34,814 bases of DNA. Origin: Candidatus Afararchaeum irisae (GTDB taxonomy: Archaea > Halobacteriota > Halobacteria > Halobacteriales > Afararchaeaceae). The position numbers and the translations under genes were made by a program. Position 1 is the first letter of the stretch. Each line of letters starts with the position of its first letter. The stretch covers positions 1 through 34,814 of the forward strand of contig JAXIOF010000062.1 of NCBI GenBank assembly GCA_034190545.1, given 5' to 3'. Below, piece after piece: positions 6,270 to 17,248 of the stretch. Below the pieces are notes generated by a model. That model searched no databases, was not told the origin of the DNA, and saw only the letters and a list, made by a program, of their open reading frames with translations.

Positions 6270-7193
6270 ATGGAACTCAAAGACTCGTCGGTTCTCGTAA
6301 CTGGTGGGGCGGGATTCATAGGAAGCCATCTGATCGAACGTCTCGATCCGTCGAACCACGTCGAGGTCATCGACAGCCTGAGTTCGGGGAACGCCGACTA
6401 CCTCCCCGACGAGGTCAAGATACACGAGGTCGACCTACTTGACACAGACGCCGTCTCCGAGGTCATGAAGTCTGACTACGACATCGTGTTTCACTTAGCC
6501 GCTAATCCTGACGTCCAGAGCGGTGCTGATAATCTACGTCTCGATCTGGAGCAAAACACGGTCGCGACTAACAACCTCCTTGAGTCGATGAAGGCAAACG
6601 GCGTCGACAAGATAGCGTTCACGTCGACGTCGACGGTATACGGCGAGGACGTTCCGATGCCGACTCCCGAGACGTACGGTCCTCTGAAGCCCATCTCGCT
6701 CTACGGAGCCTCGAAGCTGGGATGTGAGGGACTGTGTACGGCTTACGAGGGTAGCTTCGGATTCGACACGTGGATATTCAGGTTCGCTAACATAGTGGGT
6801 GAGAGAGGACACGGAGTAGTCCCCGACTTCATAGAGAAGCTGGAGAACGATCCCGAGAGACTCGAAATACTCGGTGACGGCAGACAGAGGAAGTCGTACC
6901 TACACGTCTCCGACTGCGTAGACGCGATGGTACACGCGGTCGAGAACGCCGACGGTACTGTCTACAACATCGGAAGCCGTGACACCGTCTCTGTCACAGA
7001 GATCGCAGAGATAGTTAGTGAGGAGATGGGTCTCGATCCCGATTTCGAGTACACGGGTGGACGACGCGGCTGGACGGGCGACGTCCCCGAGATGAGACTT
7101 TCTGTCGAGAAGCTAATGGATACGGGATGGCAGCCCCAACACGACAGCGAGGAAAGCGTCAGAAGAGCCACGCGAGAGATGTCTAGCCCCTGA
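6270..7193 (+). CDS. NAD-dependent sugar-nucleotide epimerase/dehydratase (extended SDR)
   Basis: This 307-residue protein has the complete extended-SDR layout: NAD-binding TGGAGFIGSHLIE at residues 11-23, FHLAANPDV near 73, Ser/Thr of TSTSTVYGE near 118, and the catalytic pair in YGASKLGCEGL near 143. The C-terminal half binds the nucleotide sugar (DGRQRKSYLHVSDCVDAM near 205). UDP-glucose 4-epimerase-like or related activity is the best guess; substrate specificity is not readable. Its 3' end overlaps the 3' end of the convergent GT2 gene by 11 bp, and both probably serve glycan synthesis. Confidence 0.88.
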   Translation: MELKDSSVLVTGGAGFIGSHLIERLDPSNHVEVIDSLSSGNADYLPDEVKIHEVDLLDTDAVSEVMKSDYDIVFHLAANPDVQSGADNLRLDLEQNTVATNNLLESMKANGVDKIAFTSTSTVYGEDVPMPTPETYGPLKPISLYGASKLGCEGLCTAYEGSFGFDTWIFRFANIVGERGHGVVPDFIEKLENDPERLEILGDGRQRKSYLHVSDCVDAMVHAVENADGTVYNIGSRDTVSVTEIAEIVSEEMGLDPDFEYTGGRRGWTGDVPEMRLSVEKLMDTGWQPQHDSEESVRRATREMSSP

Positions 7194-7935
7194 GTCGTTC
7201 CTGTATTCCGACCTTGAGTACCGACTTGGCTATCTCAGCACCTCCTGAGAGGGGATCGAGCTTCGAGTCGCCCGCCCTCTCACGGTACTCTATGGGTATC
7301 TCACGCACATTGTAGTCTCTCATAACGGGTCTCATCAGAAGCTCGGCGGAGAGACCCGTGTTCTCTGTCCAGTCCACCGACTCGACGACCTCACGTCTGT
7401 AGGCACGCATTCCCGTGGTGGTGTCGTGGACACGTCTTCCCATGAGGACTGTCGCTGTCAGTGCGAAGACGACGTTTCCGAGACGGTTCATCGACGGCAT
7501 CGCGTCGGCACCGTGGTAGAGCCTGTCGCCGCTCACGACGTCGTATCCCGAGTTTATGGCTTCGAGAAACTCGGGTAGCTGTTCCATCGGGTAGGTGTCG
7601 TCACAGTCGGTCGTGACTATCACCTCCCTGTCGGGTGTGAGAACAGCCTCACGTACTGCGACCCCGTAGCCCTGAGGCTCCTGTTCTATCACCCTCGCCC
7701 CCATCTCCCTCGCTATCTCCGGGGTCGCGTCGGAGGAGCCGTCGACACAGACCACCTCGGCTTTACCGTCGGTGACCTCATGAATGTCGTCGAGAACCTT
7801 TCCGACAGCTTCCTCCTCGTTGTAAGTCCCCATTACGACGCTGACGTCTGTGAAGTCGTATCCGTCGTGGCTTTGGCTCGCTGTCTCGTCGTGTGTCTGA
7901 GTCTGAGTCTGAGTCGTGAGTGTCTGAGACGACAT
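7183..7935 (-). CDS. Family 2 glycosyltransferase, polyprenyl-phosphate sugar synthase type (DPM1-like)
   Basis: This 250-residue GT-A enzyme has VSVVMGTYNEEEAVGKVL near residue 32, the donor-binding VDGSSDATPEIA near 66, and the DxD-like DCDDTYP near 111. HDTTTGMRAYRREVV and SAELLMRPVMRDYNVREIPI follow further on, as in dolichyl-phosphate mannose/glucose synthases. No transmembrane segment is evident, so it likely charges a lipid carrier at the cytosolic face. The first 25 residues are low-complexity, with TQTQTQT repeats encoded by tandem 6-bp units at 7895-7915. An iron-box palindrome (7974-7987) and a TATA-like GTTAAGTA (7963-7970) lie upstream, suggesting it is transcribed separately from the GMC gene but by the same iron signal. 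It could be AglJ- or AglD-like; the acceptor is unknown. Confidence 0.88.
   Translation of the reverse strand: MSSQTLTTQTQTQTHDETASQSHDGYDFTDVSVVMGTYNEEEAVGKVLDDIHEVTDGKAEVVCVDGSSDATPEIAREMGARVIEQEPQGYGVAVREAVLTPDREVIVTTDCDDTYPMEQLPEFLEAINSGYDVVSGDRLYHGADAMPSMNRLGNVVFALTATVLMGRRVHDTTTGMRAYRREVVESVDWTENTGLSAELLMRPVMRDYNVREIPIEYRERAGDSKLDPLSGGAEIAKSVLKVGIQERLRG
7895..7915 (-). repeat. 6-bp tandem repeat (GTCTGA units) coding for a Gln-Thr tract
   Basis: Three perfect GTCTGA copies plus a partial one lie inside the 5' end of the GT2 gene. On the coding strand they give alternating Thr-Gln. The unit is a multiple of three, so copy-number changes keep the frame. Confidence 0.75.
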
Positions 7936-7973
7936 CTGTGTAGTCGTAGATGTGTCCCCGCCTACTTAACTTC

Positions 7974-7987
7974 TTAGGTTAACCTAA
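7974..7987. promoter_or_regulatory. Iron-box-like operator a (DtxR/IdeR type), upstream of GT2
   Basis: TTAGGTTAACCTAA is a perfect 14-bp palindrome with the TTAGG-N4-CCTAA layout of DtxR/IdeR boxes. It lies 39-52 nt upstream of the GT2 start, just upstream of its TATA-like GTTAAGTA at 7963-7970, and 3 nt past the stop of the GMC gene. It is one of four such sites in this block. Confidence 0.78.
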
Positions 7988-7990
7988 AAA

Positions 7991-9631
7991 TCAGAGGTAC
8001 TCGTCTATGTTGTCGGCAGCCTTGAGCGAGAGGGCGGCTATCGTGAGAGTCGGGTTCATCGCGCCGCTCGTGACGAAGACGCTACTCCCGGCTATCCAGA
8101 GGTTGTCGAGGTCGTGTGTCCTCATACGCGGATTCACGACCGACTCGTCGGGGTCGGTTCCCATCCGTGTGGTTCCCATGTGGTGGTAAGCCGGACCCGT
8201 GTTCTCGGGACTGACCTGCCACGTCACCTCGGCTCCCATCTCGGAGAGTATCGCCTCCTGTACCGTGTTCGCACGGCGTATAGAACGTCTCGTGACCTCG
8301 TCTATCTCCCAGTTTATCTCGGGGACAGGATTGCCGTTGTGGTCGGTCTTCGAGGAGTCGAGTCCGACGTAGTTTTTCTTCCGGGGTCTCTGACCCACGA
8401 GACCGCCGACACCGATCGAGTTTCCGTACGAGTCCCTGAGATCCGAGAGGAGTGAGTCGCCCCAGTCGTCGGAGCTGAGCGCAGTCTCGACTGGGGAGGG
8501 TCCTGCGTAGTTGAGGAACTCGATCTTTATCGGAGTGAGAGACGACCTGTCTACGTCGGCGGGAGGGACGCCCTCGGTCGGCTTAGCGGGTCTGTCGTAG
8601 AACTCGTGGCTCTCGCTCGTGAGGAAGCCGACGTGGTTCTGGCGCGTCCTCTCGTCGAGTACGCCTCCCGTTCCCGCGAAGAGATGCTCCATGAAGTAAC
8701 GTCCGACAGCGCCGCTGGAGTTACCGAGTCCGTCGGGGTACTCCTCCGACTTCGAGAGGAGAAGGAGACGCGGGTTCTCGATTCCCCCACACGCGACCAC
8801 GAAGACACGTGCCTCCTGTCTGTGTCTCTCACCGTCAGGGGTGACATAGACGACTGACTCGACTGAGTCGCCCGTGCGGTCGTGTTCGAGACGGACTGCG
8901 GTCGATCTGTCTATCACGCGCGCACCCTCCTCCTCCGCCTTTCTTACGTCACGGGTCGCGTCGTACTTGGCTCCCGAGGGACAGACGGGGTCACAGGTGC
9001 CGTATCCGACACACGCTGGCTCGCCGTCGTATGACTCGGAGTTACGCGCGTTCGGAACTCGATGTACTCTGATACCGAGTTCGTCACACGCCTTCTCGAA
9101 GAGGGAGTCGGAGTAAGACGGTTCGAAGCCCGGTAGGGGATACTCGTCGTCTCTGGGGGGTGCAAAGGGGTTGTCGTCGCTCCCCGAGACCCCTAACCGT
9201 CTCTCCGCCTCGGCGTAGTAAGGCTTGAGGTCGTCGTAGCTCAGGGGCCAGTCCCTCGCGACTCCGTGTCTCGTCCGTGTCTCGAAGTCGGACTCGTGGA
9301 GACGCATCACCATCCCCTGCCAGTGAAGAGTCGATCCCCCGACAGCCTTGACACGTGTCGCGTTGAGAGGGTAAAAGAGGTCGCCCGACGAGGTATAGGC
9401 GTCACGTTCTCCTCCCATCTCCCAGACTGAGAGGTCGTCGTGTCCGGGTCTTATCGACCTCTCCATCCTCTCGTCCCTGTCTCGCGGGTCGAACCTCTTT
9501 CCGGCTTCGAGAACGACCGTCTCGTGTCCTCTCTCTGAGAGCTCGTGAGCTATCAGAGAGCCCGCAGGACCCGATCCTATTACACAGACATCGACCCTCT
9601 CCGACGGCGTCCTGTCGGTCTCCTCAGACAT
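7991..9631 (-). CDS. GMC-family FAD oxidoreductase, large subunit of a sugar/alcohol dehydrogenase
   Basis: This 546-residue flavoprotein has an FAD Rossmann motif GSGPAG at residues 19-24, VKAVGGSTLHWQGM near 95, and the C-terminal GMC signatures HHMGTTRMG and MNPTLTIAALSLKAAD. Cys207, Cys213 and Cys217 in a C-x5-C-x3-C-PSGAK motif resemble the cysteine cluster of gluconate or FAD-glucose dehydrogenase large subunits, reported to carry an Fe-S centre in some members; that role here is inferred. It has no signal peptide, but its partner gene just upstream encodes a Tat-signalled small subunit, so co-export as a complex is likely. The start ATG 9631 overlaps the small-subunit stop by 8 bp (ATGTCTGA); a longer frame to 9685 is less likely. 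No cytochrome c subunit is present. The substrate is unknown. Confidence 0.9.
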   Translation of the reverse strand: MSEETDRTPSERVDVCVIGSGPAGSLIAHELSERGHETVVLEAGKRFDPRDRDERMERSIRPGHDDLSVWEMGGERDAYTSSGDLFYPLNATRVKAVGGSTLHWQGMVMRLHESDFETRTRHGVARDWPLSYDDLKPYYAEAERRLGVSGSDDNPFAPPRDDEYPLPGFEPSYSDSLFEKACDELGIRVHRVPNARNSESYDGEPACVGYGTCDPVCPSGAKYDATRDVRKAEEEGARVIDRSTAVRLEHDRTGDSVESVVYVTPDGERHRQEARVFVVACGGIENPRLLLLSKSEEYPDGLGNSSGAVGRYFMEHLFAGTGGVLDERTRQNHVGFLTSESHEFYDRPAKPTEGVPPADVDRSSLTPIKIEFLNYAGPSPVETALSSDDWGDSLLSDLRDSYGNSIGVGGLVGQRPRKKNYVGLDSSKTDHNGNPVPEINWEIDEVTRRSIRRANTVQEAILSEMGAEVTWQVSPENTGPAYHHMGTTRMGTDPDESVVNPRMRTHDLDNLWIAGSSVFVTSGAMNPTLTIAALSLKAADNIDEYL

Positions 9632-10163
9632 CTGGACCCCTCGTGTAACTCGATGTACCGCCCGGATGTCCCTGTGGGTTCTCAAGACCCACTAGTTCGC
9701 CTCCTGTAGGTGTGGTGTAGAGAGCGAAAAGTAGCTCGTTTACGACGTGGTACCTCACCGCCTCGACTCCTGATCCCTCGGGGTCTGGGTCAGCCGTCTC
9801 CGCGCCCATCGCCCTGAGAGCCTCGTCCCTCTCGTCGCGGCTAAGATCGGCGAACCGGTCGCCGTACCACGACTCAGCGTACTTGTCGAGATAGGCGACC
9901 GCATCAGAGAGACGTTCGGCACGGTCGGGCGAGTCATGTGCCCGGCTGAGAACGTACGAACTCACGAACTCCTCGGTCTCGTCGGCTTCGAGTTCGGAGG
10001 GATAGACAGTCTCGGCGGCGGCGACGAATACTTCGACCTCTTCGTCGGTGAGGGGTTTTGTCCCCTGATCGGACTCCTCGGACTCCTCGACAGCGACTAA
10101 AGCCGCGCCTCCGACGCCGACGGCAGCGAGCGCAGCCATCAGGTCACGTCTCGTGAGCCTCAT
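9624..10163 (-). CDS. Gluconate 2-dehydrogenase subunit 3-like protein (Tat-exported small subunit)
   Basis: This 179-residue protein begins MRLTRRDLMAALAAVGVGG: a twin-arginine motif (TRRDLM) followed by a hydrophobic stretch, typical of a Tat signal. The rest, with LTDEEVEVFVAAAETVYPS and a helical body ending in an NPQGHPGG-like segment, matches the gluconate 2-dehydrogenase subunit 3 family, which pairs with GMC flavoproteins and carries them across the membrane. It overlaps the upstream GT39-like gene by ATGA (10160-10163) and the downstream GMC gene by 8 bp, so all three are translationally coupled. It is the strongest evidence that the oxidoreductase works outside the cell. Confidence 0.87.
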   Translation of the reverse strand: MRLTRRDLMAALAAVGVGGAALVAVEESEESDQGTKPLTDEEVEVFVAAAETVYPSELEADETEEFVSSYVLSRAHDSPDRAERLSDAVAYLDKYAESWYGDRFADLSRDERDEALRAMGAETADPDPEGSGVEAVRYHVVNELLFALYTTPTGGELVGLENPQGHPGGTSSYTRGPDV

Positions 10164-12172
10164 ACTCCCCCCTCGGTTTCGGCGTGAAGGTCGGTTCTGA
10201 CAAAGACGCCTTCGGGAGACGACTCGGGGATGTAGGCTCCACCGTAGCCGTCACACAGACGTACGTCGTCACAGTACTTCTTCCGGGGTGTGAGTCCACG
10301 TACTCCCGTCGCAGACTCGACAGGGAGTGAGAGACGGTACTCGAAGCTGTTCCCGAAGCCCTGGTCTACGAAGACTACGACTTCGACGGTCGAGGAGTCT
10401 CCGAGACGAACAGAGACGTTTTGAGTTGAACCAGAGCCCGAGACAGACCTAAGACGAACCTTGTCCCGTGTCACGCCGAGACTCAGATTCACTGACTCCG
10501 ACCCTGAGGCGTCGGGGAAGGTCACGAACTCGGTTCCCTCGTCGGTCGTGACGGTCGCTGTGATCTCGTCGTCTTCATCGGGGTCAGGAATCCCGAGAGT
10601 AGCGTCGAGGCTGAGACGGCTGCCCTCAACGTGTTCGATCTCTTCGAGACGTGCTGTCTCGGGAGAGCCGTCGGCGGGCGACCAGACGCCGCGGTACGAG
10701 TACCTGTAGAGAGTCCTGTCGGGATACTCGTCGACAACATCGAAGGGTCTGTCGTCGATGACATAGATGGCGTCGCCGTCGTAGTCGGGACTGTTCCGGA
10801 GGTACTGGAAGGGATGAGCCAGCCAGTTGCCGTACGGGTCAGGAAGAAACACGACCGCGTTCTCGAAAGACGTCTCCTCGAAGGGCTCGTAGACATCGGA
10901 GTAGGTTCGTGTAACCTCGGCGTTCCGGGTGATCTTCTCCTCCGCCTCGACGGCTGTGACGCCACCGAAGACCGCCGCTGACAGAATCACGACTGCTGTG
11001 ACGCCTCGTGTGCTCACGCCTGTCCTGAGACGTCTGTAGAGAGCCACCGCACCCGCCGACGCGAACGCCGCGGTCGGAACCAGGAGGTCGAAATGGTAGT
11101 AGGGTCCGAAGAACGAGACCAAGCCGTCGCCCGCGGCGTCGAGGTCTCCGAGTATGTTGAAGTTGCCCCAGAAGTAGAGGTTTCCAGCGATCACCGAGAC
11201 GAAGATGCCTGCGACGGTCGCCTTACGTCGGTCGATCCCGTCATCGAAGGCAACGAGTAGACCGACTACTGCGAGGAGACCTCCTAAGACGCCGCCCGCA
11301 ATCCAGTCGGTGAAGAAGAGCCTCACAGCCTCGTAGTTCGACCTGAGGGCGAGTTCGGGCGTGTATACTATCTCGTGGCTGAGTATACGCCGTCTCCCGA
11401 ATCCGATCCCGTCGAGCGGAGCGAACTCAAGGTAGGGAAATCCGAGAGGCGATCCCGTCATAACGGCGTTGTAGGCGACCGTGGCGGCGACTCCCGAGAG
11501 TCCGAGGACGGCGGTGGCTGTCTGCCTCGGGACTGCGACCCGCGGCTCGTCATAGACTGTGTAGACGGCGTGGGCTATGAAGGGGGCTGCGAACAGAACC
11601 GCTGTGTAGGGACGTGCGAAGAAAGACAGACCGACTCCGACGCCGGCTAACGAAGCCCATCTGAGGTCGTTGAGACGGTCGGCTCGGAGGTACGAGTAGG
11701 CGAATACGAGGTTAAGGAGGGTCGTCGGCGCGTAAGGCAGGAAGACAGACGCGTCGACGATAAAGAGGGGTGAGGCACCGACGAAGACTGCCGCGAGGAC
11801 TCCTGTTACGGAGTCGAACGCCTCACGTACCGTCGCAGAGACAAGTACGAGGACTCCGACCGAGACACCGATGAGTGAGAGACGGTATCCGCCGAGTAGC
11901 TCTCCGAGACCGAAGATTACCGCCGGGACAGGCGAGTACTTGGGGTAGAGACCGTCGTCGCCTTCGACGAAGAACCACGGTCGGAAGACACCGTCGACAG
12001 GTGGTTTAAGTCTCAGATTTCCGTCGAGGAGCATCGAAGCGTGGTGGAGATAGACCCCTTCGTCGTGGTTGAGAGAGTGGTATGCGAAGACGTCGGTAGA
12101 GACGGTCCAGACTACAATGCCCCCGATGACGGCGACTAAGGCTGTGAGAAGGGTTTGACGTTCTACCTCCAC
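10160..12172 (-). CDS. Membrane glycosyltransferase, GT39/ArnT-like (GT-C fold)
   Basis: This 670-residue protein has a first membrane helix at about residues 7-25, followed by NHDEGVYLHHA, where Asp37-Glu38 sit in the first extracytoplasmic loop at the position of the catalytic acid in GT-C enzymes. Roughly ten hydrophobic segments run to about residue 400. The last 250 residues form a soluble, beta-rich extracellular region. Such enzymes move a sugar from a polyprenyl-phosphate carrier to a lipid, glycan or protein on the outer face. The start is GTG at 12172. It follows the permease gene by 20 nt and overlaps the Tat small-subunit gene by 4 bp, so it lies inside the iron operon. The acceptor and sugar are unknown. 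Confidence 0.82.
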   Translation of the reverse strand: MEVERQTLLTALVAVIGGIVVWTVSTDVFAYHSLNHDEGVYLHHASMLLDGNLRLKPPVDGVFRPWFFVEGDDGLYPKYSPVPAVIFGLGELLGGYRLSLIGVSVGVLVLVSATVREAFDSVTGVLAAVFVGASPLFIVDASVFLPYAPTTLLNLVFAYSYLRADRLNDLRWASLAGVGVGLSFFARPYTAVLFAAPFIAHAVYTVYDEPRVAVPRQTATAVLGLSGVAATVAYNAVMTGSPLGFPYLEFAPLDGIGFGRRRILSHEIVYTPELALRSNYEAVRLFFTDWIAGGVLGGLLAVVGLLVAFDDGIDRRKATVAGIFVSVIAGNLYFWGNFNILGDLDAAGDGLVSFFGPYYHFDLLVPTAAFASAGAVALYRRLRTGVSTRGVTAVVILSAAVFGGVTAVEAEEKITRNAEVTRTYSDVYEPFEETSFENAVVFLPDPYGNWLAHPFQYLRNSPDYDGDAIYVIDDRPFDVVDEYPDRTLYRYSYRGVWSPADGSPETARLEEIEHVEGSRLSLDATLGIPDPDEDDEITATVTTDEGTEFVTFPDASGSESVNLSLGVTRDKVRLRSVSGSGSTQNVSVRLGDSSTVEVVVFVDQGFGNSFEYRLSLPVESATGVRGLTPRKKYCDDVRLCDGYGGAYIPESSPEGVFVRTDLHAETEGGV

Positions 12173-12192
12173 TGTCTCACCTCTTCTGTGTC

Positions 12193-13818
12193 TCAGGTGT
12201 CACTCTCGCCCCCCTCCTGTGATATTATTACGACCATCGAGAGTCCCGAGACAGCGACTAGGACGAAGGCGGGGACGGCTGCCTGGCTGTAGAGTCCCGC
12301 TTCCTCGACCCGCCAGATGTAGGTCACGAGAGTGTCAAAGCCCATGGGTCGGAGTACGAGTGTCGCGGGGAGCTCCTTCATAGTCGTGAGGAAGACTAGT
12401 GCCGCTCCCGTGGCTATTCCGGGGAGTACAAGCGGGAGTGTTACCGATCTGAACGCCTCGAGACGCGAGCTTCCGAGTGTACGTGCCGCTTCGACTAGCT
12501 CGGTATCGACCTGTAACGTCGAGGCACGTACAGAGCCTATCGCCTGTGGTGTGAAACGGACGACGTAGGCGAAGACTAAGAGGGGTACCGTCTTGTAGAG
12601 CGACGGTAGGACGTCGAGGCTGAATCCCACGAGGGCGATAGCAAGGACGATACCTGGGGTTGCGTATCCGACATACGGAATCCGGTCGGCTACGAAAGCC
12701 AGCTTTGAGTCGGAGACCGCCGACCTGAGGGCTATCGGGAACGCGACTACGACCGAAGCAACGGCGGCTAAGAGGGATACATAGACCGAGTTCCAGCCGT
12801 ACTCCCACGAGAACGGCATCGTACCCGTGGCGTAGCCGGGCTGGTTGGTGAAGAGCCACGACCCGAATATAACGATGGGAAGGAGGACAGCCGCAAGTCC
12901 CACCACAGCTGGGAAGACGGCGGCGGGATACTGCCATCTTCCGAGGAGGTTGAGGCTTCCGACTCCACGTCTCCCACGGCTCTCGTACGCCTTAGATTCG
13001 TCGACCCCTATACGTGATTCGATCATGAGTATGAGTGCGGTAATCCCGACGAGCTGGAGAGACAGGAGAGCGGCGTAGTCGCGCATGAATGTTCGGTAAC
13101 GCGCATATATGAACTGGGTAAAGACCTCGACACGCATTATGTTCGGGGTTCCGAAGTCGGAGAGTGTGTAGAGAGCGACGAGGAGAGCACCCGCTGTTAT
13201 TCCCGGGGTTATCTGGGGTAGTATGACACGTCTGAACGACTCCCATCTGCCACAGTTGAGGCTCCGCGCCGCCTCGAACAGCGACGCGTCGAGCGAGAGG
13301 AGAGACGCACGTGTCGTGAGAAAGACATACGGATAGGTGTAGAGTGTCAGGACCACCGCGGCACCTGCGAAGCCGTATATCTCGGGTACTCTCTCGACGC
13401 CGAGAGGAGCAAGAACGTCGGCGAGTGTCCCGCGAGGACCGAAAGCCGAGACGACAGCGAAAGCCCCGAGGTAGCTCGGTATTGCGAGCGGGAGAGCCGC
13501 GATTACCGTCCACGCCCGTCTGAGAGGTACGTCCTGTACGGTGAGGACGGCGAGAGGGACTCCTATGACGACGCTCGCTCCGGTGACCACGGCGACTAAG
13601 CCGACGCTTCTCACAAGAACCTCCAGTGTCGTTGAGTCAGTGAGAAGATCGAGGGATTCGGCTCCGAGATCCAGTACGCCGACGAAAAGCCAGCTAAGCG
13701 GGAAGACAAGTAGGAGTGCGAGCACGAGACCCACAAGGGTCATGCCTGTACCGAGGGCATCTGTGGTGTCACCGGGGAGCCTCTCCCGCGCCATGCCGAT
13801 CATCCTCTCGATGTTCAT
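12193..13818 (-). CDS. Ferric iron ABC transporter permease, fused two-domain FbpB type
   Basis: This 541-residue protein contains two tandem permease units, each of about six helices. Two EAA loops, which dock the ATPase, are clear: EAARSLNCGRWESFRRVILP near residue 184 and EAARTLGSSRLEAFRSVTLP near 447. This fused layout is characteristic of FbpB/SfuB/AfuB-type iron(III) permeases, with thiamine and phosphonate systems as relatives. It starts 7 nt after the binding-protein stop, so it is co-transcribed with it under iron-box operator b. No ATPase (FbpC) gene follows; the next gene is a glycosyltransferase. The transporter must borrow an ATPase coded elsewhere. Confidence 0.92.
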   Translation of the reverse strand: MNIERMIGMARERLPGDTTDALGTGMTLVGLVLALLLVFPLSWLFVGVLDLGAESLDLLTDSTTLEVLVRSVGLVAVVTGASVVIGVPLAVLTVQDVPLRRAWTVIAALPLAIPSYLGAFAVVSAFGPRGTLADVLAPLGVERVPEIYGFAGAAVVLTLYTYPYVFLTTRASLLSLDASLFEAARSLNCGRWESFRRVILPQITPGITAGALLVALYTLSDFGTPNIMRVEVFTQFIYARYRTFMRDYAALLSLQLVGITALILMIESRIGVDESKAYESRGRRGVGSLNLLGRWQYPAAVFPAVVGLAAVLLPIVIFGSWLFTNQPGYATGTMPFSWEYGWNSVYVSLLAAVASVVVAFPIALRSAVSDSKLAFVADRIPYVGYATPGIVLAIALVGFSLDVLPSLYKTVPLLVFAYVVRFTPQAIGSVRASTLQVDTELVEAARTLGSSRLEAFRSVTLPLVLPGIATGAALVFLTTMKELPATLVLRPMGFDTLVTYIWRVEEAGLYSQAAVPAFVLVAVSGLSMVVIISQEGGESDT

Positions 13819-13825
13819 ACTCGTC

Positions 13826-15007
13826 CTATCCCAAAACTCCGGCTTCCCTCATGAGTTCGAGCGTGGGTTCGAGGTTGGAGAGCTTGGCTAGGTCGATATC
13901 CGGCGGACTCAGTTCGTCGACAGTCGGCAGGTCTCCGACGGGCTCGACCCCCTCTATCATGGGGTAGGCGAAGCTCACGGTAGCGAAGAACTCCTGAGCC
14001 TCCGAGGAGAGGAGATGGCGGACGAAGTTGTTGACGAGTTCGTCCTTCTGGGTTCCCTTTATACGTAGAGCCCCCGCGACGTTGACGAGAGCCCCAGCGT
14101 CTCCCTGTGTGAACGCGAGATCTATGGGTGCGTCGGGTCTCTGGTTCTTGACCCTCATGGCGTAGTAATGGTTGGCGAATCCGGCGTCTAAGGCTCCGTC
14201 GGCGACCTGCTGTGAGACGACGTACTCGTTCGAGAAACGCTGTGTGCCCGCCTCACGCATCGAGACGAGCCAGTCACGTGTGGCTTCACGTCCTTCGAGT
14301 ATTCTCATCGCTGTCACGAACGACTGGAAGGCTCCGTAGGTAGGTGCCCAGCCCATGTTTCCCCTGAGCGCGTCTGTGTCGGGGAACTTCATAACCTTGT
14401 CGGGAATGTCGCCCTCAGTCAGGCGGTTGGTGTTGTACGGTATGCTCCTCGCACGTCCCGCGACACCAACCCAGGCGTTGTCGGAGCCTCTGAAGCTCTC
14501 GGGAACCGGGCTCACGACCTCGTCGCTGAGTGGCTCGTAGGCGTCGTTGTTAGCCACATAGCTCAGGGAGCTAGCGTCGATAGACCAGAAGACGTCAGCC
14601 TGTGGAGCACCCCTCTTGACCTCGTTGACCACCGTCTGTGCGAGCGACGCAGAGCCCGCCGAGCTCGGTAGAACCTCGAAGTTGGGGTAGATCTCCTGTA
14701 ACATATCGACGAACTCCATGTAGATACCCCCCTCTCCACCGCCTATGTATAGGTTTAATGTGCCTTCTAAGTCAGGGAGATCCTGTATCGAAGTCCCTCC
14801 CGGTGCGGGACGTCCCTCGGCTAGGGCTCCCGATCCCCTGAAGCTACTCAGCGAGGGTATCTCGACCTCGTCCGAACCCGAACTTGACCCCGACTCATTT
14901 CCGTTACCACCTCCGCCCGTCAGACCCGCACACCCCGCGAGACCCGTCATAGAACCCGCACCCAAGACCTTCAGAACACGCCGTCTCGTGTAGCTCTCGT
15001 CGTCCAT
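13826..15007 (-). CDS. Ferric iron ABC transporter substrate-binding lipoprotein, FbpA-like
   Basis: This 393-residue protein has a Tat lipoprotein signal: TRRRVLKVLG at residues 7-16 and a lipobox LAGC with Cys26, followed by a Gly/Asn/Ser-rich linker, so it is anchored outside the membrane. The mature part has the cluster D fold with YIGGGEGGIYMEF near 87 and ADVFWSIDASSL near 137. NHYYAMRV places Tyr281-Tyr282 like the twin iron-ligating tyrosines of FbpA, which is the best evidence for Fe(III). ATG 15007 was chosen over the longer frame to 15031 because the signal peptide starts there. The iron box (15012-15025) and TATA-like TTTAATG (15029-15035) then fit a leaderless promoter. Confidence 0.92.
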   Translation of the reverse strand: MDDESYTRRRVLKVLGAGSMTGLAGCAGLTGGGGNGNESGSSSGSDEVEIPSLSSFRGSGALAEGRPAPGGTSIQDLPDLEGTLNLYIGGGEGGIYMEFVDMLQEIYPNFEVLPSSAGSASLAQTVVNEVKRGAPQADVFWSIDASSLSYVANNDAYEPLSDEVVSPVPESFRGSDNAWVGVAGRARSIPYNTNRLTEGDIPDKVMKFPDTDALRGNMGWAPTYGAFQSFVTAMRILEGREATRDWLVSMREAGTQRFSNEYVVSQQVADGALDAGFANHYYAMRVKNQRPDAPIDLAFTQGDAGALVNVAGALRIKGTQKDELVNNFVRHLLSSEAQEFFATVSFAYPMIEGVEPVGDLPTVDELSPPDIDLAKLSNLEPTLELMREAGVLG

Positions 15008-15011
15008 ACTT

Positions 15012-15025
15012 TTAGGTTCACCTAA
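15012..15025. promoter_or_regulatory. Iron-box-like operator b, upstream of the ferric binding protein
   Basis: TTAGGTTCACCTAA has both TTAGG/CCTAA half sites intact. It covers positions -5 to -18 from the binding-protein ATG, between its TATA-like element (15029-15035) and the start, where a bound repressor would block transcription. This is the site whose target (iron uptake) best explains the motif. Confidence 0.85.
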
Positions 15026-15030
15026 ACACA

Positions 15031-16179
15031 TTAAACGCTTGCGGTTTGTGTCGTCTCGGAGAGGTCTTCGAGGCAGTCGAGCCAGTCGTGCATATACTCA
15101 CCGCAGTAGCTAAGGAACTCGCCGTTGTTGAGGTCGTCCCAGTCACCCTCGACGAGTGCGTCGGCGATCTCCTCGACGACCTCCTCGTACGACTCAGCGT
15201 CGTCTCCGACAGAGTCGACAGTCTCCCAGAGATGCTCGTTGAGTTCGAGACCCGCGACCTCGTTCTGTAGGTCGCTGAAGGTCGACCGCGGAGCCTTGTT
15301 GTGCTCACACAGCGGAGCACCGTTGTAGATACGTCTGTCGAGGACGTCACACGCGCGTTTAAGGAAGATACCCGACCAGATGTCGTCGAACCTGCCGACC
15401 TCCCACGGGTTGTCGTCCATCGGAAGCTGGTAGAACGCGGGTATTATCTCGGGATCGAAGGCGAGATTCATCGAACAGACCGTGAGGTAGTTACGGCGCG
15501 CCGCTACGAAGTCGTCGCCGAAGTCGTCAGACGTGGTACGTGTCTGTGCCTGTCCGTTGAGGTCACCGTCCATCAGAATACGTACGGCGTCGAGGTCGGG
15601 TACGTTAGTCCAGAGACCCTGTGACGCGACTACTCCGTCGACCTCAGTAGTTCTGGTCGAGACGTCCTCGTCCATCGCTGAGTAGGGGTAGCCTCGGGGA
15701 TACAGACCCTTCTCGTCGACGCTCTGATACAGCACGTTGACCCAGCTCTCGTCCGACGAGACCTCGGTGATCTCTCCCTCGAACTCCAGGTTTTCGAGAT
15801 GCCGACCGAAGAAGTCGTAGCCGTCGTTGGGCAACGTGTCGTCATCTATGAAAAAGCAGTAGTCGAAGTCGTTCGCCCAGATGTAGAGGAGACCGAAGCT
15901 CGTCTGTGCGTGGCTAGCCTCAGGTATCAGACCCGAGTACTCGTCGACCCCGTGTTTGGAGAACCAGTCGTCGCGCCGGCTACTGTCGAATACCTCTCCC
16001 GAGACCCCCTCTTCTTCGAGCATCCGCTCCATCCCGTCGGTGTCACAGAAGTCCTCGGTCACGAGTAGAACGTGGAGACGTGAGAGGTCGAAGCCGTGTT
16101 GGCGTGCGTTCTCGAAGTAGCTTCTCATACAGCCGTACTCACGTATCGTGGGAACAACCACGCAGATGTCAGAGTCCAT
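15031..16179 (-). CDS. RGP/UDP-arabinopyranose mutase-like (alpha-1,4-glucan-protein synthase) family protein
   Basis: This 382-residue protein matches plant reversibly glycosylated polypeptides: VVVPTIREYGCMRSYF at the start, the Asp triad FFIDDDTLPNDG at 112-114, RGYPYS at 162-167, SQGLWTNVPDLDA near 186, CSMNLAFDPEIIPAFY, and GRFDDIWSGIFLKRACDVL. In plants these proteins interconvert UDP-arabinopyranose and furanose, and the arginine of RGYP-type motifs is, from memory, the self-glycosylated residue. The archaeal role is not established; a nucleotide-sugar mutase or a glycosyltransferase supplying the surface glycan is likely. It has its own iron box (16194-16207) and ends 5 bp before the next box. 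The C-terminal 80 residues are acidic and specific to this protein. Confidence 0.84.
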   Translation of the reverse strand: MDSDICVVVPTIREYGCMRSYFENARQHGFDLSRLHVLLVTEDFCDTDGMERMLEEEGVSGEVFDSSRRDDWFSKHGVDEYSGLIPEASHAQTSFGLLYIWANDFDYCFFIDDDTLPNDGYDFFGRHLENLEFEGEITEVSSDESWVNVLYQSVDEKGLYPRGYPYSAMDEDVSTRTTEVDGVVASQGLWTNVPDLDAVRILMDGDLNGQAQTRTTSDDFGDDFVAARRNYLTVCSMNLAFDPEIIPAFYQLPMDDNPWEVGRFDDIWSGIFLKRACDVLDRRIYNGAPLCEHNKAPRSTFSDLQNEVAGLELNEHLWETVDSVGDDAESYEEVVEEIADALVEGDWDDLNNGEFLSYCGEYMHDWLDCLEDLSETTQTASV

Positions 16180-16193
16180 CGACTCGTAGTTTT

Positions 16194-16207
16194 TTAGGCA
16201 AGCCTAA
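16194..16207. promoter_or_regulatory. Iron-box-like operator c, upstream of the RGP-like gene
   Basis: TTAGGCAAGCCTAA is a palindrome with perfect half sites, 15-28 nt upstream of the RGP-like start. It overlaps the stop codon of the neighbouring gene (16204-16206) and adjoins a T/A-rich TATA-like TCTTTTA (minus strand). Confidence 0.82.
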
Positions 16208-17220
16208 AAGACTTCGGGTTCTTCGTGAGTTGAGGAGACCCCAAGCGACGGGAACGCGATACCGCCGCCGATGAGAGTCACGGCGTTCTTGAGGAGATGG
16301 TCGAGTGCCGCCGCGGCGAGTGCGACTGACGGCTCGACTGTTGAGAGAGCCACGAAGACAGCGGTGAAGCCACCCTCGTAGAGTCCGACGCCCCCCTGTG
16401 AGAGTGGGAGTACCTTGGCTAGGTTACCGACGCTCACGGCTAGACTTCCGAGAAGAAGAGCCGTCAGGGGATCGAGTGGAACCCCGACGGCGTAGACGAC
16501 AGCTACACCCGTGAGGACGTCGAGGAGCCAGACCGCCGTGGTTCCGACTCCGACATAGACGAGGCTCCTCGGCTGTCCCGCGACACAGAGTACGTCTGAG
16601 ACGAAGTCACCCAGGGTCTCGAAGACCGAAGACAGTCTTCCTCGAAGAGTCAGACGCGGGAGACGTCTGTATACCAGTGCTACTCCGATCCCGACTCCAA
16701 CAGTTCCCGCTGCTACGCCTAAAGCTGTCTGACCTCCAAAGGGGAGCCGCTGTGTCACACGGACTCCGCTCAGATGTAGAAGAGACGCCGAGACCACGGA
16801 TATTCCGAGTACAGCGGCTAAGTCGAAGCCTCTCTCGACGACGAGCGACGCCGCACCCGTAGTGTACGGGACGTCGGATCTCGACTTGAGTATGTAGGCA
16901 CGCACGGGGTCGCCGCCCCTCGCCGGGAGCACGAGGTTAACAGTCTGGCTAGCGAGTACCGCCATCGTGAGAAGCCTGAGACCGTCTGTGTGTCCCATTG
17001 AACCGAGTATGTCGGAGTAACGTCTCCCACGGAAGAGCCACGAGACTGCATAGACACAGACGCCGACCCCGAAGAGAAGAGGGTCGGCAGACACGGCTCC
17101 TTCGACCACGTCGTCGAAGTCGGCGTCTCCAAAGGCTACGAGGAGACCGCCGAGGGCTAAAGCTGTACCCGCGACTGCGAACAGACCGCGTCTCGACGTC
17201 CACTGTCTCACGAACTCCAT
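16204..17220 (-). CDS. UPF0104 / lysylphosphatidylglycerol-synthase-like integral membrane protein
   Basis: This 338-residue, strongly hydrophobic protein has about eight membrane segments. The family pattern is visible: YAVSWLFRGRRYSDIL near residue 57, LASQTVNLVLPARGGDPVRAY near 89 (the N-x-x-L/F-P-x-R-x-G-D motif), and the late SQGGVGLYEGGFTAVF near 276 resembling P-x-G-x-G-x-x-E. The family occurs as the membrane part of LPG synthases and, fused to GT2 domains, in AglD-type archaeal enzymes; roles in flipping or handling glycolipids are proposed but unproven. It lacks a catalytic aminoacyl-transfer domain. It has its own iron box (17235-17248) and is the first gene of the iron block. Confidence 0.83.
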   Translation of the reverse strand: MEFVRQWTSRRGLFAVAGTALALGGLLVAFGDADFDDVVEGAVSADPLLFGVGVCVYAVSWLFRGRRYSDILGSMGHTDGLRLLTMAVLASQTVNLVLPARGGDPVRAYILKSRSDVPYTTGAASLVVERGFDLAAVLGISVVSASLLHLSGVRVTQRLPFGGQTALGVAAGTVGVGIGVALVYRRLPRLTLRGRLSSVFETLGDFVSDVLCVAGQPRSLVYVGVGTTAVWLLDVLTGVAVVYAVGVPLDPLTALLLGSLAVSVGNLAKVLPLSQGGVGLYEGGFTAVFVALSTVEPSVALAAAALDHLLKNAVTLIGGGIAFPSLGVSSTHEEPEVF

Positions 17221-17234
17221 CTATCCCGTATTTT

Positions 17235-17248
17235 TTAAGCCAGCCTAA
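17235..17248. promoter_or_regulatory. Iron-box-like operator d, upstream of the UPF0104 gene
   Basis: TTAAGCCAGCCTAA matches the other three sites with one mismatch in the left half (TTAAG for TTAGG). It lies 15-28 nt upstream of ATG 17220, the same spacing as operator c, next to the T-rich TATA-like sequence at about 17246-17253. Confidence 0.7.

Follow-up and report, generated by a model that had tools for sequence, protein, structure and literature searches.

Several described systems resemble parts of an eight-gene unit that we describe here from a 34,814-nt stretch of DNA (the window; contig JAXIOF010000062.1) of the haloarchaeon Candidatus Afararchaeum irisae, whose genome comprises 1.9 Mb. 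Ferric importers of the FbpABC/FutABC type (the 7w3w, 4elo and 1mrp family) have, as the unit does, an FbpA-type binding protein with a conserved Tyr-Tyr pair, a fused FbpB permease and an iron-type box, and an FbpC-like ATPase adjoins in about 20 related loci. Unlike these importers, that of the window has its ATPase elsewhere, and its operon goes on to encode a GT-C glycosyltransferase and then a sugar dehydrogenase. The DtxR-family regulons of haloarchaea (Idr1/Idr2, SirR and TroR) share the arrangement of a palindrome before genes for siderophore binding, ferric uptake and DtxR proteins, and a passage of one proteomic study cites Leyn and Rodionov (2015) for a ferR signal in front of the genes for siderophore transport (PMC11349517). 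The regulon of the window appears to differ from those described in taking in glycan synthesis and a sugar dehydrogenase, although this comparison is provisional.

In Haloferax volcanii, AglD, AglR and AglS serve in terminal mannose addition, and the unit has the same elements of a dolichyl-phosphate sugar synthase, a UPF0104 domain and an outer-face transferase; it differs in having distinct genes for synthase and UPF0104, an additional GT75-like mutase and iron-type boxes throughout. The GT75 mutases (MtdL and plant RGP/UAM) have in common with the haloarchaeal RGP protein the DDD motif, an acceptor Arg, a general base Asp and a Mn-binding His, but the latter has His and Met in place of D87 and Q229 of MtdL. 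The glucose, fructose and gluconate dehydrogenases that carry flavin adenine dinucleotide (FAD) are likewise composed of a GMC subunit with three Cys for a [3Fe-4S] cluster and an exporting small subunit with a twin-arginine translocation (Tat) signal, whereas the enzyme of the window lacks a cytochrome c subunit and is linked to glycan and ferric uptake genes.

As judged from genome sequences, ferric-import genes in most haloarchaea adjoin, and share an iron-type box with, genes predicted to build and oxidise a surface sugar. In the window these genes occupy the minus strand and run UPF0104, RGP, ferric-binding protein (FeBP), permease, GT39-like transferase, small subunit, GMC dehydrogenase and GT2.

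Linkage of ferric uptake, glycan and dehydrogenase genes

Related loci were picked by RGP profile and not by synteny. A scan with the RGP protein yielded 28 named haloarchaeal loci (Natrinema, Haloterrigena, Natronococcus, Halorubrum, Halobacterium, Halorientalis, Halovivax and others), with FeBP beside RGP in 26 and GT39 in 27, in several gene orders. RGP was present in 308 of 394 sampled genomes of the class and, among 14 control genomes, in Haloferax volcanii alone. When the set was reduced to one locus per genus (n = 38, leaving out the paralogue loci L056 and L057), GT39 was found in 38, FeBP in 37, the permease in 36, GT2 in 31, the small subunit in 27, GMC in 23, UPF0104 in 16 and an epimerase in 12; these are counts and not probabilities, because related genomes are not independent observations. 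FeBP, permease, ATPase and GT39 form a single gene run in about 20 related loci. Four window genes flanking the unit served as negative controls (an enoyl-CoA hydratase-like protein, a 308-aa protein, an iron-containing alcohol dehydrogenase and a 155-aa protein), and none had a match in any related locus.

The dehydrogenase was found in all 32 checked genomes that have RGP and FeBP (23 in the cluster and nine elsewhere) versus 0 of 20 genomes without RGP, the same query having found GMC in other genomes as a positive control (Fisher p about 1e-14, ignoring kinship). By contrast, 17 of these 20 RGP-free genomes have FbpA homologues, most of them boxed among those with DNA read. The dehydrogenase therefore follows the glycan genes, and ferric uptake is more general. 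In the nine genomes where GMC lies outside the cluster, a box precedes GMC or the small subunit in every case (seven perfect, two matching at 9/10); in G246 the boxed small subunit/GMC pair is 400 kb from the RGP locus. A strict dependence of ferric uptake on the glycan is rejected by the FbpA homologues of the RGP-free genomes, and the converse by L014 and L048, which keep glycan genes without FeBP. A second GMC homologue (L146, G324:C1:1419964-1421670; 54%) has one in-frame TGA and no box, and is possibly a pseudogene or paralogue.

A sequence-only reading of the window had proposed that the eight genes form one iron-starvation system, to be checked by synteny and co-occurrence in other haloarchaea. 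The linkage, the boxes and the co-occurrence, which hold across about 38 genera, speak against their being independent neighbours, the outcome that this reading had named as refuting it.

Two further RGP proteins were noted. At L057:4865-8459 (G000:C38) the host has a second paralogue, 60% identical, in an unboxed row of sulfatase-like, RGP and UPF0104-like genes; here RGP and UPF0104 are paired outside iron control. One genome has an extra RGP (L034, G010:C2:1525556-1526527) whose match to the Pfam profile, at 1e-135, is much closer than that of the haloarchaeal type, and which looks as if it were acquired.

The palindromic box and the genes behind it

Each of four transcription units in the window begins just behind a palindrome, TTAGG-N4-CCTAA. 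These boxes (TTAGGNNNNCCTAA), three perfect and one with one mismatch, stand in front of GT2, FeBP, RGP and UPF0104 at a distance of about 5-40 nt. The host genome has six perfect boxes in all, three in the window, two on C42 and one on C110. The last precedes a second FbpB-type permease gene followed by an FbpC-like ATPase gene (L030:2848-5501); there is no ABC ATPase gene within the window unit, and this pair probably supplies the ATPase for its transporter. The two C42 boxes, 26 nt apart, precede a moeA-moeA pair at the contig end (L029:3959-3998; G000:C42:10458-10497), beyond which there may be a divergent iron gene.

In 1.30 Mb of related loci the perfect box occurs 204 times, whereas none of 29 palindromes made by permuting the half-site occurs more than once, and spacers other than 4 nt give 0 or 1 occurrence. 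Of the 204, 195 stand before a unit-leading gene at a distance of 300 nt or less. Counting boxes that match at 9/10 or better, those homologues in related loci that are boxed number 26 of 28 for UPF0104, 59 of 68 for RGP, 54 of 64 for FeBP, 39 of 45 for the small subunit and 50 of 53 for GT2. No box stands directly before GT39 (0/71) or GMC (0/38), which are downstream operon members, nor before the epimerase (0/25). The epimerase, which has none in the window either, was rejected as a regulon member; since it is never boxed it is probably outside the regulon.

Perfect boxes also outnumber a reversed control pattern in three further genomes (22 vs 1, 12 vs 0 and 6 vs 4). Elsewhere they precede FhuD-like Peripla_BP_2 lipoproteins, a FecCD permease with its ATPase and an FbpC-like ATPase with a TOBE domain, and boxed DtxR-family genes (G005 and G289) are near a gene that by eye resembles dpsA; a cupin is also among the genes behind boxes in the three further genomes. 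Given the genes for siderophore binding, FecCD, the FbpC-like ATPase and DtxR proteins behind it, we take the box as the mark of an iron regulon, its dependence on iron being deduced from these genes. The regulator that binds it is very probably a DtxR-family repressor.

The host genome encodes two DtxR-family regulators. One DtxR-FeoA gene (L032:502-1899, G000:C2) adjoins a gene resembling a UPF0016/GDT1 transporter, and may be of manganese type rather than iron type. In two genera, boxes precede DUF5059 Tat lipoproteins (L097:2061-4201 and L114:1-2125), a likely case of an unrecognised surface protein of the iron regulon, and in two genera they precede DUF7552-DUF7551 proteins (L100:2006-3107 and L111:1267-2074).

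RNA-seq of Haloferax mediterranei has shown a ferric ABC binding protein falling along with siderophore genes (PMC11218638). Among the strongest low-iron responses in the Haloferax volcanii proteome are a UPF0104 protein, HVO_1859 (+11.6), and a GalE-type epimerase, HVO_0655 (+12.7) (PMC11349517). These two are at most candidate counterparts of the window genes; in genus g21, the relatives of UPF0104 and of the epimerase have no box. We found no literature on archaeal RGP proteins with iron, and no paper linking the glycan or dehydrogenase genes to iron in the literature covered, which lies outside the main haloarchaeal regulon papers. The novelty of this regulon composition is thus provisional, and part of it may already be listed in those papers.

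Gene layout and conserved sites

All eight genes named by the sequence-only reading are present at the place and on the strand given there (Table 1), and the coupling that it described through start and stop codons is borne out by overlaps of 4 nt between the GT39 and small-subunit genes and about 8 nt between the latter and GMC. Its description of a Tat-exported GMC protein with a small subunit holds for the small subunit, which has the Tat signal, but GMC has no signal of its own. The listed start of the FeBP open reading frame at 15031 is too far upstream, since the box at 15012-15025 falls inside it; the start must be the Met at 15007, which stands behind the box. The window unit has no gene for a cytochrome c third subunit, and none was recognised among the recurrent families of related loci.

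Table 1. Genes and boxes of the unit and the neighbouring epimerase, in window positions
Feature	Positions	Strand	Match or placement
UPF0104 / LPG_synthase_TM flippase-like membrane protein	16204..17220	-	PF03706 3.7e-40
RGP / GT75-like NDP-sugar mutase	15031..16179	-	PF03214 5.4e-19; MtdL structures 5e-22
FbpA-type ferric-binding Tat lipoprotein	13826..15007	-	best solved relative 7w3w 4.6e-48
FbpB-type fused ABC permease	12193..13818	-	PF00528, two stretches; PhnU2/FbpB-like matches under cut-off
GT39-like GT-C transferase, beta-rich outer domain (DUF7846)	10160..12172	-	PMT_2 3.2e-7, DUF7846 1.9e-37
Tat-signal small subunit (Gluconate_2-dh3) of dehydrogenase	9624..10163	-	PF13618 1.4e-11
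GMC dehydrogenase, FAD + predicted [3Fe-4S]	7991..about 9631	-	FAD-glucose dehydrogenase 6a2u 5e-80
GT2 dolichyl-phosphate hexose transferase	7183..7935	-	NF041391 398 bits, NCBI cut-off 375
NAD-dependent sugar epimerase	6270..7193	+	PF01370 2e-53; neighbour in many loci
Box with one mismatch, TTAGGCTGGCTTAA on - strand	17235..17248		in front of UPF0104
Perfect box	16194..16207		in front of RGP
Perfect box	15012..15025		in front of FeBP (Met 15007)
Perfect box TTAGGTTAACCTAA	7974..7987		in front of GT2

FeBP is by its sequence an FbpA relative with Tyr iron ligands: in 65 sequences N287-H288-Y289-Y290 is conserved, with the Tyr-Tyr pair Y289/Y290 at least 95% conserved (numbered from the listed start at 15031). 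The transporter has its FbpB member inside the unit, and its FbpC member is found in the boxed L030 pair and, in about 20 related loci, adjoining.

Across 77 sequences RGP conserves DDD112-114, R162 (Arg159 of MtdL), D195, S236, R263, D266 and H293, the kept sites listed beside MtdL Asp87 and Gln229 being DDD, the acceptor Arg, Asp195, Ser228, Arg257, Asp260 and His287 (residue roles of MtdL from PMC9937993). Gln229 is M237 across haloarchaea, and the Asp87/Gln229 sugar-binding pair of a GT75 mutase is absent. With the catalytic residues kept and both of these replaced, RGP is likely, though not certain, to be an enzyme that forms furanoses or glycosylates itself, with its sugar specificity altered, and its activity or its sugar may differ from that of MtdL.

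The closest solved relatives of GMC are FAD-glucose and fructose dehydrogenases, and it has three Cys where those hold [3Fe-4S]; Cys225/231/235, His501/502 and Asn544 are conserved (numbered from the TTG at 9685). Members of the FAD/[3Fe-4S] dehydrogenase family are known to be exported as hitch-hikers, and GMC is probably exported together with the small subunit, whose RR motif is conserved among homologues. The GT39-like protein is a GT-C enzyme by its AlphaFold model (pLDDT 91, pTM 0.91), for which Foldseek gives matches to ArnT, ALG9/12, OST and Emb arabinosyltransferases, and an acidic motif in the first outer loop, D37-E38, is nearly invariant; a fold search with its beta-rich C-terminal domain alone gave no clear match. 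Other haloarchaea have an AglD-like fusion of GT2 and UPF0104, with whose C-terminal half the UPF0104 protein shares 44% identity.

Proposed role in iron acquisition and its alternatives

Co-regulation by itself is close to certain. Co-regulation together with functional linkage of the eight genes is well supported on genomic grounds, because the neighbourhood, the boxes, the dispersed boxed GMC and the co-occurrence of GMC point the same way. In the explanation that we prefer, an iron-bound DtxR-family repressor would sit on the boxes over the promoters, and the four units would be expressed when iron falls. FbpA and FbpB would then import Fe(III) with an FbpC ATPase coded elsewhere. The GT75-like enzyme would make an isomer of a nucleoside diphosphate (NDP) sugar in the cytoplasm, probably a furanose; GT2 would put the sugar on dolichyl phosphate, UPF0104 would help it across or present it, and the GT-C enzyme would move it to a surface acceptor, either a glycoprotein glycan or a glycolipid. 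The Tat-exported FAD/[3Fe-4S] dehydrogenase would oxidise the surface sugar or a product of it, and the modified sugar would, as we think most likely, help to keep Fe(III) close to the membrane for uptake by way of FbpA. Induction of an iron-sulfur enzyme at iron shortage suggests a role in getting iron. We give this explanation as a whole, including a product that holds Fe(III) for FbpA, a probability of about 0.45; for it we infer which regulator acts and with what sign, which sugar is made and which acceptor takes it, what the dehydrogenase oxidises, and the holding of iron.

Several observations weigh against it. Nothing points directly to iron binding by the glycan; the window unit has no gene for a cytochrome or other electron acceptor; and D87, essential in MtdL, is H90 in RGP across haloarchaea. 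FAD-glucose and fructose dehydrogenases turn free sugars into a lactone or a keto-sugar and do not yield uronic acids. In genus g65 (L048) and in Halocatena (L014), RGP, GT39 and GT2 are retained while FeBP and boxes are missing at the locus; the dehydrogenase is also missing at L048, and G340 has no GMC. As g65 genomes have 8-11 boxes elsewhere, this argues that the glycan has a use apart from iron control. From the model of the sequence-only reading, one iron-type regulon unit that links ferric import, the making of a glycan at the outer face and the oxidation of sugar stands on linkage, boxes and co-occurrence, whereas the oxidation of sugars to acids that bind Fe(III) and supply the binding protein is not borne out. 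Rather doubtful is a bolder version, in which a dolichol-routed surface sugar, probably furanose-containing and made at low iron only, would be turned by the dehydrogenase into a ferric ligand or an electron source and pass Fe(III) to FbpA as a cell-bound glycan counterpart of a siderophore.

The same genes could remodel the envelope at low iron without binding iron, the S-layer glycan or a glycolipid being changed for permeability, adhesion, virus escape or the shielding of exposed uptake proteins. The GT2, UPF0104 and GT-C parts fit the terminal-sugar logic of AglD/AglS, and g65 and Halocatena have kept the glycan genes where iron genes are lacking; yet remodelling leaves unexplained why an Fe-S sugar dehydrogenase should so strictly follow the RGP genes and why GT39 should be inside a ferric transporter operon, and we consider it unlikely without being far-fetched. 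Another role for the dehydrogenase would be as a surface ferric reductase, passing electrons from sugar through FAD and Fe-S to Fe(III) or a chelate, with the sugar part supplying or anchoring the reductant. Its family is assayed with ferricyanide, the unit has no cytochrome subunit and GMC is boxed at every distant locus tested, but FbpA-type proteins take Fe(III), so reduction outside is unneeded, and iron as the acceptor is without direct evidence; this we hold to be improbable.

Less probable still is that the sugar tags low-iron lipoproteins and transporters, such as FeBP and siderophore-binding proteins, for stability or sorting: FeBP, permease and GT39 are operon-coupled, and GT-C enzymes of the GT39-like fold include protein glycosyltransferases, but FeBP-type proteins occur in 17 of 20 RGP-free genomes and the dehydrogenase is left unaccounted for. 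That glycan and iron genes are side by side by accident is scarcely credible. Some loci lack UPF0104, GT2 or the epimerase, as might be expected of independent neighbours, and yet the linkage in about 38 genera, the boxes on every unit, the boxed dispersed GMC and the co-occurrence contradict it; a chance neighbourhood is also rejected by the flank-gene negative controls and the permuted motifs.

With RGP in 308 of the 394 class genomes and in Haloferax volcanii, the question is genetically testable in a model archaeon. The regulon suggests testable functions for three orphan groups, the haloarchaeal GT75-like proteins, the DUF7846 GT39 proteins and the Tat-exported GMC dehydrogenases. If the iron control is true, archaeal surface glycosylation and sugar oxidation would join iron acquisition or the physiology of iron stress.

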